A program made the translations under genes and the position numbers. A DNA stretch of 36,458 bases. Origin: an uncultured Opitutia bacterium (GTDB lineage: Bacteria > Verrucomicrobiota > Verrucomicrobiia > Opitutales > Opitutaceae). Where the stretch lies: positions 1 to 36,458 of the forward strand of contig CAINHV010000346.1 in the NCBI GenBank assembly GCA_903848965.1. The letters run 5' to 3'. A model generated the notes under the pieces. It had not been told where the DNA came from. It made no database searches and saw nothing but the letters and a program-made list of their open reading frames with translations. The first letter of the stretch is position 1; every line of letters starts with the position of its first letter. Below, piece by piece: positions 23,339-34,078 of this stretch.

Positions 23339-24565
23339 CTATTCGTAACGCAGCGCCTCGATCGGGTCGAGGGACGCCGCCTTCCACGCGGGATATAGGC
23401 CGAAGATGACGCCAATCCCGCCGCAAACGGCGAGCCCGATGCCGGCCCACAGCCAGGGGAAAGTGATCGACGTGTTCATCGCCATCGCCACGGCGTTGCC
23501 TCCGCCGACGCCGATCACGACGCCCGCCACCCCTCCGATCATCGAGAGGGCGACCGCCTCGGCGAGGAACTGCAGGAGGATGCTGCGCTTCTTCGCCCCG
23601 ATGCTCTTACGAATGCCGATCTCCTTGGTGCGCTCCGTCACACTGACGAGCATGATGTTCATCACGCCGATGCCCGAGGCGAGGAGTGCAATCGCGCTGA
23701 TGATCAGCGCACCCGCCGCCACGATGTCCGCGATTTTGTTGAAGGCCTCGATCAGTGACTCGTTGGAGAAAACCTCGAAGTCATTGGGATCCTCGGGTTC
23801 GAGCCCGCGGACGAGCCGCATCGCCCCAATCGCCTGTTCCTCCGTGGCCGCAATTTCCGTCGGTCCCGGGGCCTGGACATTGATACTGATTGAGCGCCAG
23901 GCCCGCCCGTAAATCGCGAGAAACCGGCTGATTGGGGTGAGGACGAGATTGTCGGGATTGCCCCCGAACGAGGACCCCTTCGGCGCGAGGAGGCCGACCA
24001 CCGTGTAATTCTGGCCGTTCATCCGGACGAGCCTCCCCAGCGCCTCGCCATCCGGAAAGACCCGCTCGACCACCGCCGCCCCCAGCACGCACACCGCGCG
24101 ACCATAGAGAACGTCGTCGACCCCGAGGTTGCGGCCCGCACCGACATCGTAGTTGAAGGCCGTGATAAAGTTATCGTCCGTCCCAATCAACCGGACGTTC
24201 GGGTTCGTGCGCAGGTCGCGATTCACCACCGTGACGCCGTTGCGGCTGATCTGGAGATTCACGCGCGCCGCCTCGCCCATCGCTTCCTTGAACCGCTCGG
24301 CATGCGGATAACTGATGTCGCGCCGGTTGCGGAACCGCGTCCACGGATCGGAGAAGTTGATCGGTGGAAACTTCGTGACCTGAAAGCTGTTCGCCCCGAG
24401 GACATTCAGGCCGGTCTCGATCGATGAGCGCATGCCGTTGATCAACGTCATCACGCCGATGACGGAGAACACCCCCACCGCAATGCCGAGCACCGTCAGG
24501 CTCGAACGCAGCTTGTTCGAGCTCAGGGCCGTGACGGCGAGGCGGAAGGTTTCGATGCTGCGCAT
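23339..24565 (-). CDS. MacB-like ABC transporter permease (FtsX/MacB_PCD type)
   Basis: A 408-aa inner-membrane permease without its own ATPase domain. TM1 is near residues 18-42 (NKLRSSLTVLGIAVGVFSVI). A large periplasmic MacB_PCD domain follows (about 45-280), with SYPHAERFKEA and GRAVCVLGAAVVERVFPDGE. Three C-terminal TM helices form the FtsX domain (ASGIGVMNIMLVSVTERTKE, IGIRKSIGAKKRSILLQFLA). It ends in AASLDPIEALRYE, typical of the family. It is the last gene of an operon with a HlyD/MacA-like adaptor, an ATPase and a paralogous permease. The pair probably forms a heterodimer using the 26487-27233 ATPase to drive mechanotransmission-type export of a peptide, lipid or drug. Substrate unknown. 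Confidence 0.92.
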   Translation of the reverse strand: MRSIETFRLAVTALSSNKLRSSLTVLGIAVGVFSVIGVMTLINGMRSSIETGLNVLGANSFQVTKFPPINFSDPWTRFRNRRDISYPHAERFKEAMGEAARVNLQISRNGVTVVNRDLRTNPNVRLIGTDDNFITAFNYDVGAGRNLGVDDVLYGRAVCVLGAAVVERVFPDGEALGRLVRMNGQNYTVVGLLAPKGSSFGGNPDNLVLTPISRFLAIYGRAWRSISINVQAPGPTEIAATEEQAIGAMRLVRGLEPEDPNDFEVFSNESLIEAFNKIADIVAAGALIISAIALLASGIGVMNIMLVSVTERTKEIGIRKSIGAKKRSILLQFLAEAVALSMIGGVAGVVIGVGGGNAVAMAMNTSITFPWLWAGIGLAVCGGIGVIFGLYPAWKAASLDPIEALRYE

Positions 24566-24567
24566 TT

Positions 24568-25109
24568 GATCGGATTTTGGATTTTGGATTCTCGATTTTG
24601 GATTTCAGGCCCCGCTTACTAAACCAGCTTCCCCATTTTCCGCTGCAGCGTCTGGCGGGACGCGACCATGATGGCGGTCAGTTCACTCGCTTCCTGCGCC
24701 AACGGGATAACTTGCTCCGGGGGCGCCAACTCGTGGTCGGAAATCAATTCCAGCCAGTACCCGGACTCATCCGCCTGTTCCTCGACCACGGAAATCTTCG
24801 ACACCATCTCAGCGACCGAACGTGAACGACATGCCGCCCGGTAATTCGCTCCGACAGAGGTGGCACAGCGCCCCAGCTGCCCCGCTAGAATTCGCGCCGC
24901 CCGGCTATCCGGCAGCGAATCGACGAGCTGCAGCACAAGCCGGGCAAAAGACTTCGTTCGCAGCTTCAATTCTCGTTCCGTCATCCGCCCAATTTTACGC
25001 GGGCGACTAGGCGAAGAAAACCGTGGCTGACCCCAAATTGCGGGGTAGCCAGCGCGACGACGGTAGTCGGCTCGAAATCCAAAATCGAGAATCCAAAATC
25101 CGAAATCAC
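24568..25109. mobile_element. Palindrome-bounded cassette carrying the four-helix-bundle gene
   Basis: A perfect 28-bp inverted repeat (24579-24606 and 25074-25101, core GGATTCTCGATTTTGGATTT) bounds a segment with one gene. The element begins exactly at the TGA of the upstream permease (minus-strand reading TGATTTCGG) and ends 2 bp before the ATG of the downstream permease (AAAATCCGATCAAATG). No transposase is encoded and no clear target duplication was seen. Confidence 0.65.
24619..24984 (-). CDS. Four-helix-bundle protein (S23/IVS-encoded family, TIGR02436-like)
   Basis: A 121-aa all-helical protein. Family features are MTERELKLRTKSFARLVLQL at the start, SLPDSRAARILAGQLGRCAT, SVGANYRAACRSRSVAEMVS and KISVVEEQADESGYWLELIS. 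The family was first noticed in intervening sequences of 23S rRNA genes and is now known at many chromosomal sites; its function is unknown, although the pentameric bundle may bind nucleic acid. The frame stays open upstream to 25113, but that extra part merely translates the repeat (SDFGFWILDFGF), so ATG at 24982-24984 is chosen. The gene separates two permease genes of one operon and is enclosed by 28-bp inverted repeats. Confidence 0.88.
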   Translation of the reverse strand: MTERELKLRTKSFARLVLQLVDSLPDSRAARILAGQLGRCATSVGANYRAACRSRSVAEMVSKISVVEEQADESGYWLELISDHELAPPEQVIPLAQEASELTAIMVASRQTLQRKMGKLV

Positions 25110-26356
25110 TCATAGCGAAGCGCCACCACGGGGTCCAACTTGCTCGCCTGCCAGGCGGGGGCGAAGCCGCTGAACACCCCGGTCACCACGGACGCGGAGA
25201 GCCCGACCAGCACCAGGCCGGCGGAGAAAACCAGCGGGAACGAGGGCATGACGACCGCGACCACCGCGGACATTGCCCAGGCCGTCGCGAGCCCTCCCAG
25301 GCCGCCCAAGACGCAGATGCTCACTGCCTCGATCAGGAACTGCAGGAGAATCGTCCGCCGGCGGGCACCCAGCGCCTTGCGCGTGCCAATCTCCTTCGTC
25401 CGCTCCTTCACGCTGACGTAGGTGATGTTCATGATTCCGATCGCGCCGACGAAGAGCGCGAGCCCGGTCACGAAGAGTCCGCCTAGCGCGATCTTCTGTT
25501 TGATGGGATCAATTTGCTCCCGGATGATCTGCTGGCTGTTGATCTCGAAGTCGTCCTTCTTCTCCGGCCCGAGCTTGCGCACGCGCCGCATCACGCCGCG
25601 CAACTCGTCCTTCGCCTCGTCCATCCGCGCCAGATCGACCTGCACGCGGATATCGGGATTCGCTGACCGCAGCGAAAAAGATCGGCCAAATGCGCTCAGC
25701 GGCAAAATCACCTGGGAGTCCCAGCTGAACAGTCCGAGAAAACTGCCCTGCCGCGCCGCGACCCCGACGACGGTGTAGCGCTGGTTCCGAATCTGGATCG
25801 ACTGGCCCAGCGACGATTCGCCGGGAAACAGGGCGTCGGCGACATCGAAGCCAATCACCGCCACATTGCGGCCACCGCGGCCCTCGAGTTCGCTGAAGAA
25901 GCGGCCCTCCTTCATGTCGGACCGGACAATCCGGCCCAGATCCGAGCTGGTGCCCACAATTCGGATACTGGAGAGCCGATACTCGCCCCGGATCACATTC
26001 GCGTTCCACGCCGCCGACGGGACGGCCACCTTGAGCGGACCGGCTGGATTCGCCGCGATCCACTCGTTGATCGGGTCCGCGTAATCAGTGGAGATGTCGC
26101 GCCGGTTCCGGAAATTCCACCAGTCCTGCACGTCGCGCCAGGGCCACTTGGTCACATAGAGCACGTCGTCGCCGAATCCGGCCAGGCTGCGCTCCACCCC
26201 GGCATCGATCCCGAGGATAGCGGTGCCCATCAGCGTCACCGCGACGATCCCGATGATCACGCCGAGGGCCGTCAGCGACGAACGCAGCTTGTTTGCCCGA
26301 ATCTGCGCGAAGGCGATCCGGACCGACTCGGAGATCTCATAGAGGAAGCGAGACAT
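25106..26356 (-). CDS. MacB-like ABC transporter permease, second paralogue
   Basis: A 416-aa permease with the same design as the 23339-24565 gene. TM1 (NKLRSSLTALGVIIGIVAVT) is followed by the MacB_PCD periplasmic domain (RRDISTDYADPINEWIAANP, GGRNVAVIGFDVADALFPGE). Three C-terminal helices follow, around ALFVGAIGIMNITYVSVKER, GTRKALGARRRTILLQFLIE and the final TGVFSGFAPAWQASKLDPVV. The two paralogues share the RNRRDIS segment and family motifs but differ broadly, suggesting a heteromeric permease. It comes directly after the ATPase gene, separated by a repeat element without a gene. ATG at 26354-26356, immediately after the repeat. Confidence 0.92.
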   Translation of the reverse strand: MSRFLYEISESVRIAFAQIRANKLRSSLTALGVIIGIVAVTLMGTAILGIDAGVERSLAGFGDDVLYVTKWPWRDVQDWWNFRNRRDISTDYADPINEWIAANPAGPLKVAVPSAAWNANVIRGEYRLSSIRIVGTSSDLGRIVRSDMKEGRFFSELEGRGGRNVAVIGFDVADALFPGESSLGQSIQIRNQRYTVVGVAARQGSFLGLFSWDSQVILPLSAFGRSFSLRSANPDIRVQVDLARMDEAKDELRGVMRRVRKLGPEKKDDFEINSQQIIREQIDPIKQKIALGGLFVTGLALFVGAIGIMNITYVSVKERTKEIGTRKALGARRRTILLQFLIEAVSICVLGGLGGLATAWAMSAVVAVVMPSFPLVFSAGLVLVGLSASVVTGVFSGFAPAWQASKLDPVVALRYE

Positions 26357-26486
26357 GCGGATTTTCGATTTTGGATTCTCGATTTTCGATTCTCGGATGA
26401 ACGTCTTTCGCTACGGGAACCGGTGGGTAAGCGGATTTCGGCAATCGAAAATCGAGCGAAGCGACAGCGTCATCCAAAATCAAAAA

Positions 26487-26489
<3 letters not shown>
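26357..26489. repeat. Palindromic element of the same family as 24568-25109, without a gene
   Basis: The left part (ATTTTCGATTTTGGATTCTC, 26361-26380, and GATTTTCGATT at 26381-26391) is mirrored by AATCGAAAATC (26443-26453) and CATCCAAAATCAAAAATCA (26471-26489). As in the cassette at 24568-25109, it starts at the TGA of the upstream gene (TGATTTTTGATTTTGG on the minus strand) and ends at the next ATG (AAAATCCGCATG). Confidence 0.7.
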
Positions 26490-33632: not shown

Positions 33633-34078
33633 TGGCCCACGAAACACACGAAAGGCACGAAATCAGAGAGCGATTCTCTCCCACTCCAGTTTGGGAGCGT
33701 GTCCGAAGTTCACCAGGAGTCCCAAGCGGAACTGCGTTGCATGAAGATAGTTCAAAATCTGGGCGCGATGCTCATCCGCGAGATGGGACACTGCTTTCAA
33801 TTCGAGAATCACTTTCCCGAAACACACGAAGTCCGCGACAAAAGCCTGCTTCAAGGGCCGGCCTTTGTATTCGAGACGAAGCACCTTCTGGCTCTCGAAC
33901 GGTATGCCCTGCGCTTCAAATTCGATGGCCAGGCATTCGTGGAATACTGACTCGAGGAACCCGCAACCCTTTTCCTTATCGACCTCGAAGCACGCTCCCA
34001 TGATGCGATAGGATTCATCTCGATAGACAAGTTCGGGCATGAGCTCCCTTTCGTGTTTTTAGTGTGTTTCGTGGGCCA
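33633..34078. mobile_element. Inverted-repeat-bounded cassette carrying the GxxExxY gene
   Basis: A perfect 17-bp inverted repeat, TGGCCCACGAAACACAC (33633-33649) and its complement (34062-34078), with a further CGAAAGG / CCTTTCG match inside, encloses one gene. The right arm supplies the last codons (HETH) and lies next to the stop of the upstream ABC ATPase. The left arm ends 7 bp before the ATG of the permease gene. A related CACGAAA unit is at 34783-34813. Confidence 0.65.
33663..34040 (-). CDS. GxxExxY protein (PD-(D/E)XK nuclease-like)
   Basis: A 125-aa protein of the GxxExxY family (TIGR04256-like). The name-giving motif is GFLESVF (Phe in place of Tyr), inside YRIMGACFEVDKEKGCGFLE. 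The putative nuclease core is VADFVCFGKVILELKAVSHL, with Asp and the Glu-x-Lys pair in a PD-(D/E)XK arrangement, and AQILNYLHATQFRLGLLVNF follows as in all family members. Catalysis has not been proven for the family. It is enclosed by 17-bp inverted repeats and placed between the ATPase and permease genes of one operon, so it is probably a passenger. ATG at 34038-34040. Confidence 0.9.
   Translation of the reverse strand: MPELVYRDESYRIMGACFEVDKEKGCGFLESVFHECLAIEFEAQGIPFESQKVLRLEYKGRPLKQAFVADFVCFGKVILELKAVSHLADEHRAQILNYLHATQFRLGLLVNFGHAPKLEWERIAL

Follow-up and report, generated by a model that had tools for sequence, protein, structure and literature searches.

The window, the whole stretch of 36,458 nucleotides analyzed here, corresponds to contig C346 in the draft assembly of genome G000 (3.9 Mb, 94.7% complete). 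Between two of its ABC permease genes lies a small reading frame that matched TIGR02436 with 67.6 bits (cut-off 24) and PF05635 with 44.8 bits (cut-off 33.8) in a profile search, and which thus encodes S23, a protein known from intervening sequences (IVSs) within bacterial 23S rRNA. This "four helix bundle protein" belongs to a very common family, present in 223 of 288 sampled genomes of the Verrucomicrobiota, that has, to our knowledge, no known function. The start codon is most likely the ATG at 24984, and a longer reading frame to 25113 merely runs on through the neighboring arm. S23 is the sole gene within a cassette whose two inverted arms pair with each other in the predicted RNA (Table 1). 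The initial annotation had described perfect inverted arms of 28 bp around the gene; complementarity is indeed perfect over 28 nt (24579-24606/25074-25101), and it extends to 34-35 nt (24573-24607/25073-25107) with one or two mismatches, two for the full 35 nt. When the cassette region was shuffled, a perfect inverted repeat was never longer than 16 nt. Each arm is composed of five tandem heptads following the pattern (GATTTTS)2 GATTCTC GATTTTS GATTnnn.

Table 1. Coordinates of the S23 cassette and its neighbors in the window.
Feature	Position	Strand	Remarks
Permease B (MacB_PCD/FtsX), downstream of cassette	23339..24565	-	ATG 7 nt past the arm
3' arm (S23 sense), inverted copy of 5' arm	24573..24607	+	GATTTTG GATTTTG GATTCTC GATTTTG GATTTCA
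S23/TIGR02436 gene, 121 aa, four-helix bundle	24619..24984	-	stop codon 24619-24621 included
5' arm (S23 sense)	25073..25107	-	GATTTCG GATTTTG GATTCTC GATTTTG GATTTCG
Permease A (MacB_PCD/FtsX), upstream of cassette	25106..26356	-	stop TGA overlaps the cassette edge
S23-less mini-element, same heptad family	26360..26489	.	between ABC ATPase gene and permease A

The cassette fills the stop-to-start junction between the two permease genes. Read on the S23 strand, it begins within the TGA that ends permease A (T|GATTTCGG), the first two bases of the 5' arm supplying the end of that codon; the upstream edge, placed initially at the stop, lies inside it. The opposite edge had been put 2 bp before the ATG of permease B, which is true only with the finder's end coordinate of 24568; measured from the end of the arm, the distance is that given in Table 1. 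No clear target duplication could be read at this copy. The mini-element on the far side of permease A comprises a five-heptad array at 26360-26394 (+) followed by degenerate inverted heptads at 26443-26489.

Comparison of the orthologous permease-permease junction, which the initial annotation had proposed as a search for empty sites, found that most of 25 relatives are empty there, with between a few and about 45 nt separating the two genes. The G003 junction is occupied by another S23 cassette and that of G001 by a 149-nt mini-element with the same heptads and no S23. S23 genes of the window clade also occupy other junctions of the same operon, in G015 the one between the ATPase and permease A genes and in G017 the one past permease B, and in both elements a stop codon again lies at the edge. 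As a separate observation, the A/B junctions of G004, G015, G016, and G018 (L044, L053, L045, and L048) contain other palindromic inserts without S23, of the CACCGAGG, GAGCGTGAGCGAGTGG, and CGCTAAT decamer types; the junction is therefore a hot spot for several repeat families.

With the element as query, G000 yielded 109 matches that reduce to ~55 distinct places because every array matches both arms. The arm, initially treated as one 28-bp sequence, is a perfect match as described but not a unique one: it is a run of tandem heptads recurring at dozens of sites in the genome, stop/start junctions included, most of them without an S23 gene. Our census of 36 fetched stretches around element matches, together with two from the window, recognized 61 arrays (46 with five heptads, 11 with four, and 4 with three). 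The five-unit consensus was GATTTTS GATTTTS GATTCTC GATTTTS GATTnnn, the third heptad being near-invariant. The arrays could be matched into 22 inverted pairs (one site accounts for two of them, paired in alternative ways), whose interiors are 38-465 nt long and look unrelated to one another; S23 was present only in the window cassette, and no convincing S23 remnant was found in the S23-less mini-elements (best E 0.35). Of 27 reading frames of at least 100 codons that end near the outer edge of an array, 22 have a stop codon ending within -3 to +2 nt of it, and start codons near an edge were mostly 1-10 nt off. The fit into operon junctions recorded for the window thus holds genome-wide, and the "exact fit" is therefore a trait of the whole array family. 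Part of it will probably be the outcome of selection in tight operons, with inserts surviving only within a few free bases. The other two S23 loci of G000 are a fragment (L010) and a broken copy (L011), both with heptads of different sequence; the L010 heptads recur at about 25 sites, and those of L011 at one further weak site, so a large set of mini-elements for every S23 was rejected. L011, on contig C345 between a gene end and hisF, has stop codons in both matched stretches and its own heptad family (TTCTGGGTTTTGGGTT/AACTCAAAACTCAAAACCCAGA); it is a decaying cassette.

The association between S23 and inverted arms was then measured over 194 distinct S23 genes, a pooled set of the loci from related genomes and 80 wide-sample loci from many phyla that include CPR bacteria and a Methanophagales archaeon. 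Inverted flanking arms (score of at least 12) were present at 164 of the 194 genes, versus 5 of 194 when 5' and 3' flanks of different S23 loci were paired and none of 29 ParE toxin genes from the same relatives. A single dominant period was assigned to 168 of the 194 genes and was 7 in 131, 8 in 33, and 9 in 4. Among the 80 wide-sample loci, lag-7 self-similarity was high in 77 of 155 near flanks versus 20 of 297 far windows, and arms of four units were at least as common as those of five. The S23 genes of cyanobacterial plasmids are also flanked by heptads, of the Nostoc-type GGGAACA and GTAGGGA. In the 5' arm, G exceeded C in 130 of 145 cases. Stops lay within -6 to +4 nt of the edge at 62 of 175 S23 loci versus 23.8 expected if uniform, a noisy statistic because arms and antisense frames contain stops. 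No S23 was found in phage records.

Heptad sequence varies between S23 clades, and both period and sequence follow the protein lineage. Mapped onto a tree of 192 S23 proteins, the period switched 13 times versus at least 31 times with shuffled labels, and proteins of higher identity had more similar arms (Mantel 0.21; highest value among 999 permutations, 0.10). The closest relatives of the window S23 (L069, L200, L211, and L226) have GATT-type heptads too. GATTTTS arrays were detected in 7 of 27 genomes of the genus, with zero hits in all for the reversed-pattern control, and were present in four of the five genomes encoding an S23 at least 55% identical to that of the window versus 3 of the other 22 (p 0.009). 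Such arrays also occur without a close window-like S23 in G001 (50 pattern hits) and G018 (6). The S23 genes are under purifying selection, with a median dN/dS of 0.12 over 84 pairs. These results bear on the simplest alternative, in which the arms are ordinary simple-sequence repeats arising by slippage and S23 merely sits in repeat-rich intergenic DNA. Some arrays are long and near-perfect (L099 and L302), and the variable positions within heptads showed no clustering of the kind that a binding footprint might leave (3.55 vs 3.41 expected), as slippage would allow; the ParE and far-flank controls, the period that tracks the S23 tree, the arm sequences common to close S23 proteins in different genomes, the constant five-unit layout of the arrays, in which the third unit differs from the rest, and the filled and empty sites described below argue against it, and we regard this alternative as hardly credible.

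Insertion could be read directly on cyanobacterial plasmids. The cassette is present in Trichormus variabilis NC_007412 and Scytonema AP018264, and the same site is empty, at about 97% identity, in Aulosira AP018310, Tolypothrix CP064880, and Nostoc linckia AP018224. The filled sites read GTAAT|cassette|GTAAT and the empty site GTAATTAA, with the TAA stop of the upstream gene inside the repeat. In Nostoc ATCC 53789 pNsp_a, compared with empty sites in other Nostoc plasmids, the cassette lies at a TAG stop and reads TTCTA|cassette|TTCTA, with TA|A re-creating the stop on the left. A third plasmid case suggests TAATG/TTATG at a stop-start overlap, and the remaining filled/empty pairs are too divergent for a target duplication to be read. 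The cassettes therefore insert precisely, with a target duplication of ~5 bp at the upstream stop codon in the two readable plasmid cases, and both neighboring genes are thereby left intact. A general search for target duplications of at least 6 nt over 141 loci showed no excess (8 vs 11.7 expected), a search in which one of 5 bp is hard to see. Nostoc C052 has a decayed copy at the same site (L341), and an S23-less mini-element is present in some Nostoc plasmids and absent from others. The evidence for mobility comes entirely from genome comparison. The proposal of a specialized passenger cassette without a transposase gains from the empty sites, the filled/empty plasmid pairs, and the arms at 164 of the 194 S23 genes; relatives do not always carry the gene at the window site, and the arms are linked to this gene family.

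A second type of cassette lies in the window at 33636-34075 (-), again within a transporter operon, with an ABC ATPase gene on one side and a permease gene on the other. It contains a PF13366 (GxxExxY) gene (match 33672-34019) between inverted arms at 34047-34075 and 33636-33655 (CCCACGAAACACACTAAAAACACGAAAGG/CCTTTCGTGTGTTTCGTGGG). Inverted arms with a period of 9-10 were found at 29 of 30 PF13366 genes in relatives, and PF13366 and S23 tend to co-occur, with both in 38 genomes, neither in 13, and one in 6 (p 9e-8, uncorrected for relatedness). Given this co-occurrence and the similar cassettes, a helper acting in trans for S23 cassettes is conceivable, as a lead.

On the basis of these data, the locus is probably a selfish mobile cassette in which one S23 gene stands between two inverted, lineage-specific arrays of about five heptads. 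This explanation joins the observed S23-arm association, its clade specificity, the dispersed arm-only copies, and the precise insertion with a recognition by S23 of its own heptad arms, which we infer. Counting against it are the absence of a recognized catalytic domain from S23 and of a general excess of target duplications, the unrelated interiors of arm-only pairs, which are not expected from ordinary internal deletion of one parent, and the about 15% of S23 genes that are without scorable inverted arms. The GATTTTS arrays of G001 and G018 also count against it, and there S23 may have been lost, may fall in an assembly gap, or another S23 may be mobilizing the arrays. As to habit, the element seems to insert at gene junctions and stop codons.

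The structure model of the window S23 has four helices (monomer, pLDDT 97), and its best structural matches were 2RLD (Z 18.0) and 2GSC (Z 16.3) over 111-113 residues. The next match was Avd of diversity-generating retroelements (DGRs; 4dwl, Z 13.5), where unrelated helical bundles reach 12-13. Most predicted S23 proteins are basic, with a median pI of 9.0, and no catalytic domain was recognized in S23. The Xanthomonas campestris relative 2GSC is reported to form a homopentameric ring (PMC4990558). Five heptads per arm may perhaps match five ring subunits, a numerical match only, as four units are equally common in the wide sample. In the mechanism that we envisage, an S23 pentamer would bind an arm, perhaps with one subunit per heptad, and would bring the two cassette ends together, either as DNA or as folded RNA. 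The nuclease or strand-transfer activity, which the cassette does not visibly encode, would be supplied by the host or in trans, and the same recognition would also mobilize the arm-only mini-elements. Target preference and selection would together produce the fit to stops and starts, and the 23S rRNA IVSs would represent the same element landed in another transcript.

Mobility could also be real with S23 as no more than a passenger or regulator. A different enzyme of the host would then move whatever DNA is enclosed by inverted heptad arrays, and S23, bound to the arms, would control the expression or stability of the element RNA. The many unrelated interiors enclosed by arm pairs fit this scenario, as do G001, with many arrays and a mini-element but no close S23, and the GxxExxY cassettes, with analogous arms around a different protein. 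The match of S23 to period and heptad sequence, clade by clade across many phyla, and the strong purifying selection on S23 point instead to an essential recognition role for the protein, and we consider the scenario unlikely. A further alternative is an RNA-level retro-element whose transcript folds via the arms, with S23 acting like Avd and a reverse transcriptase in trans copying the RNA into new sites. The structural kinship with Avd and the predicted pairing of the arms in RNA are in its favor, and the target duplications are compatible with target-primed copying too. In a search that covered the RVT_1 type, this reverse transcriptase was missing from 23 of 40 S23-bearing relatives, including G000 (no hit in the 94.7% complete draft), G001, G004 (142 array hits), G015, and G017, and is therefore not required. 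Retro-mobility by an RVT_1 enzyme in trans was thus largely rejected, and the retro-element as a whole is very improbable.

The closest known counterpart of the selfish S23 cassette is the 23S rRNA IVS with an S23 ORF (Coxiella and Leptospira), which has in common with it the protein family, pairable ends, small size, a status as selfish DNA, and heptads. In the Coxiella IVS (428 nt), tandem GACAGAT heptamers precede the S23 ORF (PMC4990558), and so the link to IVSs drawn in the initial annotation is strengthened by protein family, inverted ends, and heptamers alike. The window cassette has the S23 ORF between complementary ends but is situated between two permease genes and not within 23S rRNA, the location that defines an IVS; lineage-specific heptads, dispersed arm-only copies, and the position at stop codons are not described for IVSs in the literature searched. 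A further trait of IVSs is removal from the RNA by RNase III; on this point the window cassette has arms that pair in its predicted RNA. A 23S match was not found around the nine other S23 loci checked, and short-motif hits suggesting S23 inside 23S rRNA among the fetched loci were not confirmed by Rfam. REP/BIME elements with RAYT (a Y1 transposase) and MITEs are likewise small, dispersed intergenic inverted repeats, with one gene bearing the same ends and nonautonomous copies. The window cassette, however, has no Y1 (IS200/605-like) transposase gene, and, unlike those of REP/BIME elements and MITEs, its ends are tandem heptads of which the period is conserved and the sequence is not. Of MITE-like features it has the inverted ends, and a 5-bp target duplication was seen in the two plasmid cases and was not readable at the window copy. 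Avd of DGRs has the four-helix-bundle fold in common with S23, but the cassette contains neither a reverse transcriptase nor a template/variable repeat. We place the S23 cassette with the IVS-like selfish elements, and there is a fair chance that the class merits a name of its own.

Heptanucleotides of Calothrix are one known heptamer array. Others have been reported with no stated cause, namely GGGAATC in Xanthomonas, with 70 convergent inverted pairs, and GGGGAYT in Nostoc (PMC4692102), as well as TAACTGA in Beggiatoaceae (PMC4679880). All of these published arrays are intergenic, like the S23 arms, and the reports do not mention S23; the S23 genes of cyanobacterial plasmids have Nostoc-like heptads, and a tie of the published arrays to S23 is putative. 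A full-text literature search, with subscription journals and preprints mostly outside it, returned no article in which S23 genes are connected with heptad arms. Tentatively, and as somewhat less than an even prospect, S23 with inverted heptad or octad arrays could constitute a bacteria-wide mobile class with no transposase of its own, in which a ring-forming protein would recognize the tandem units of both ends and would drive insertion at stop codons such that the stop is retained or rebuilt; this class would have given rise to the 23S IVSs and to the unexplained heptamer repeats found in cyanobacteria, Xanthomonas, and Beggiatoaceae.

For S23, the results provide a consistent genomic context and show that the gene travels, with its own arms as the candidate partner. 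The cassettes are one possible source of the heptamer repeats that have gone unexplained, and they suggest one reason for the inverted ends of 23S IVSs. Should precise insertion prove to be driven by S23 itself, with no recognized nuclease, the transposition mechanism would be new. The results also carry a warning that S23 genes in CRISPR or other operons may have been inserted there and may not be functional components.

One survey of CRISPR systems has the label "23S rRNA IVP" in a figure (PMC10910872). Within CRISPR-Cas operons of cyanobacterial plasmids, we encountered S23 cassettes at three loci (L298, L302, and L351), arranged as Cas6-S23-Cas4 in Anabaena sp. 90 and Pseudanabaena galeata and as Cas10-S23-Cmr3 in Picosynechococcus PCC 7003, a site at which PCC 7002 is without S23.
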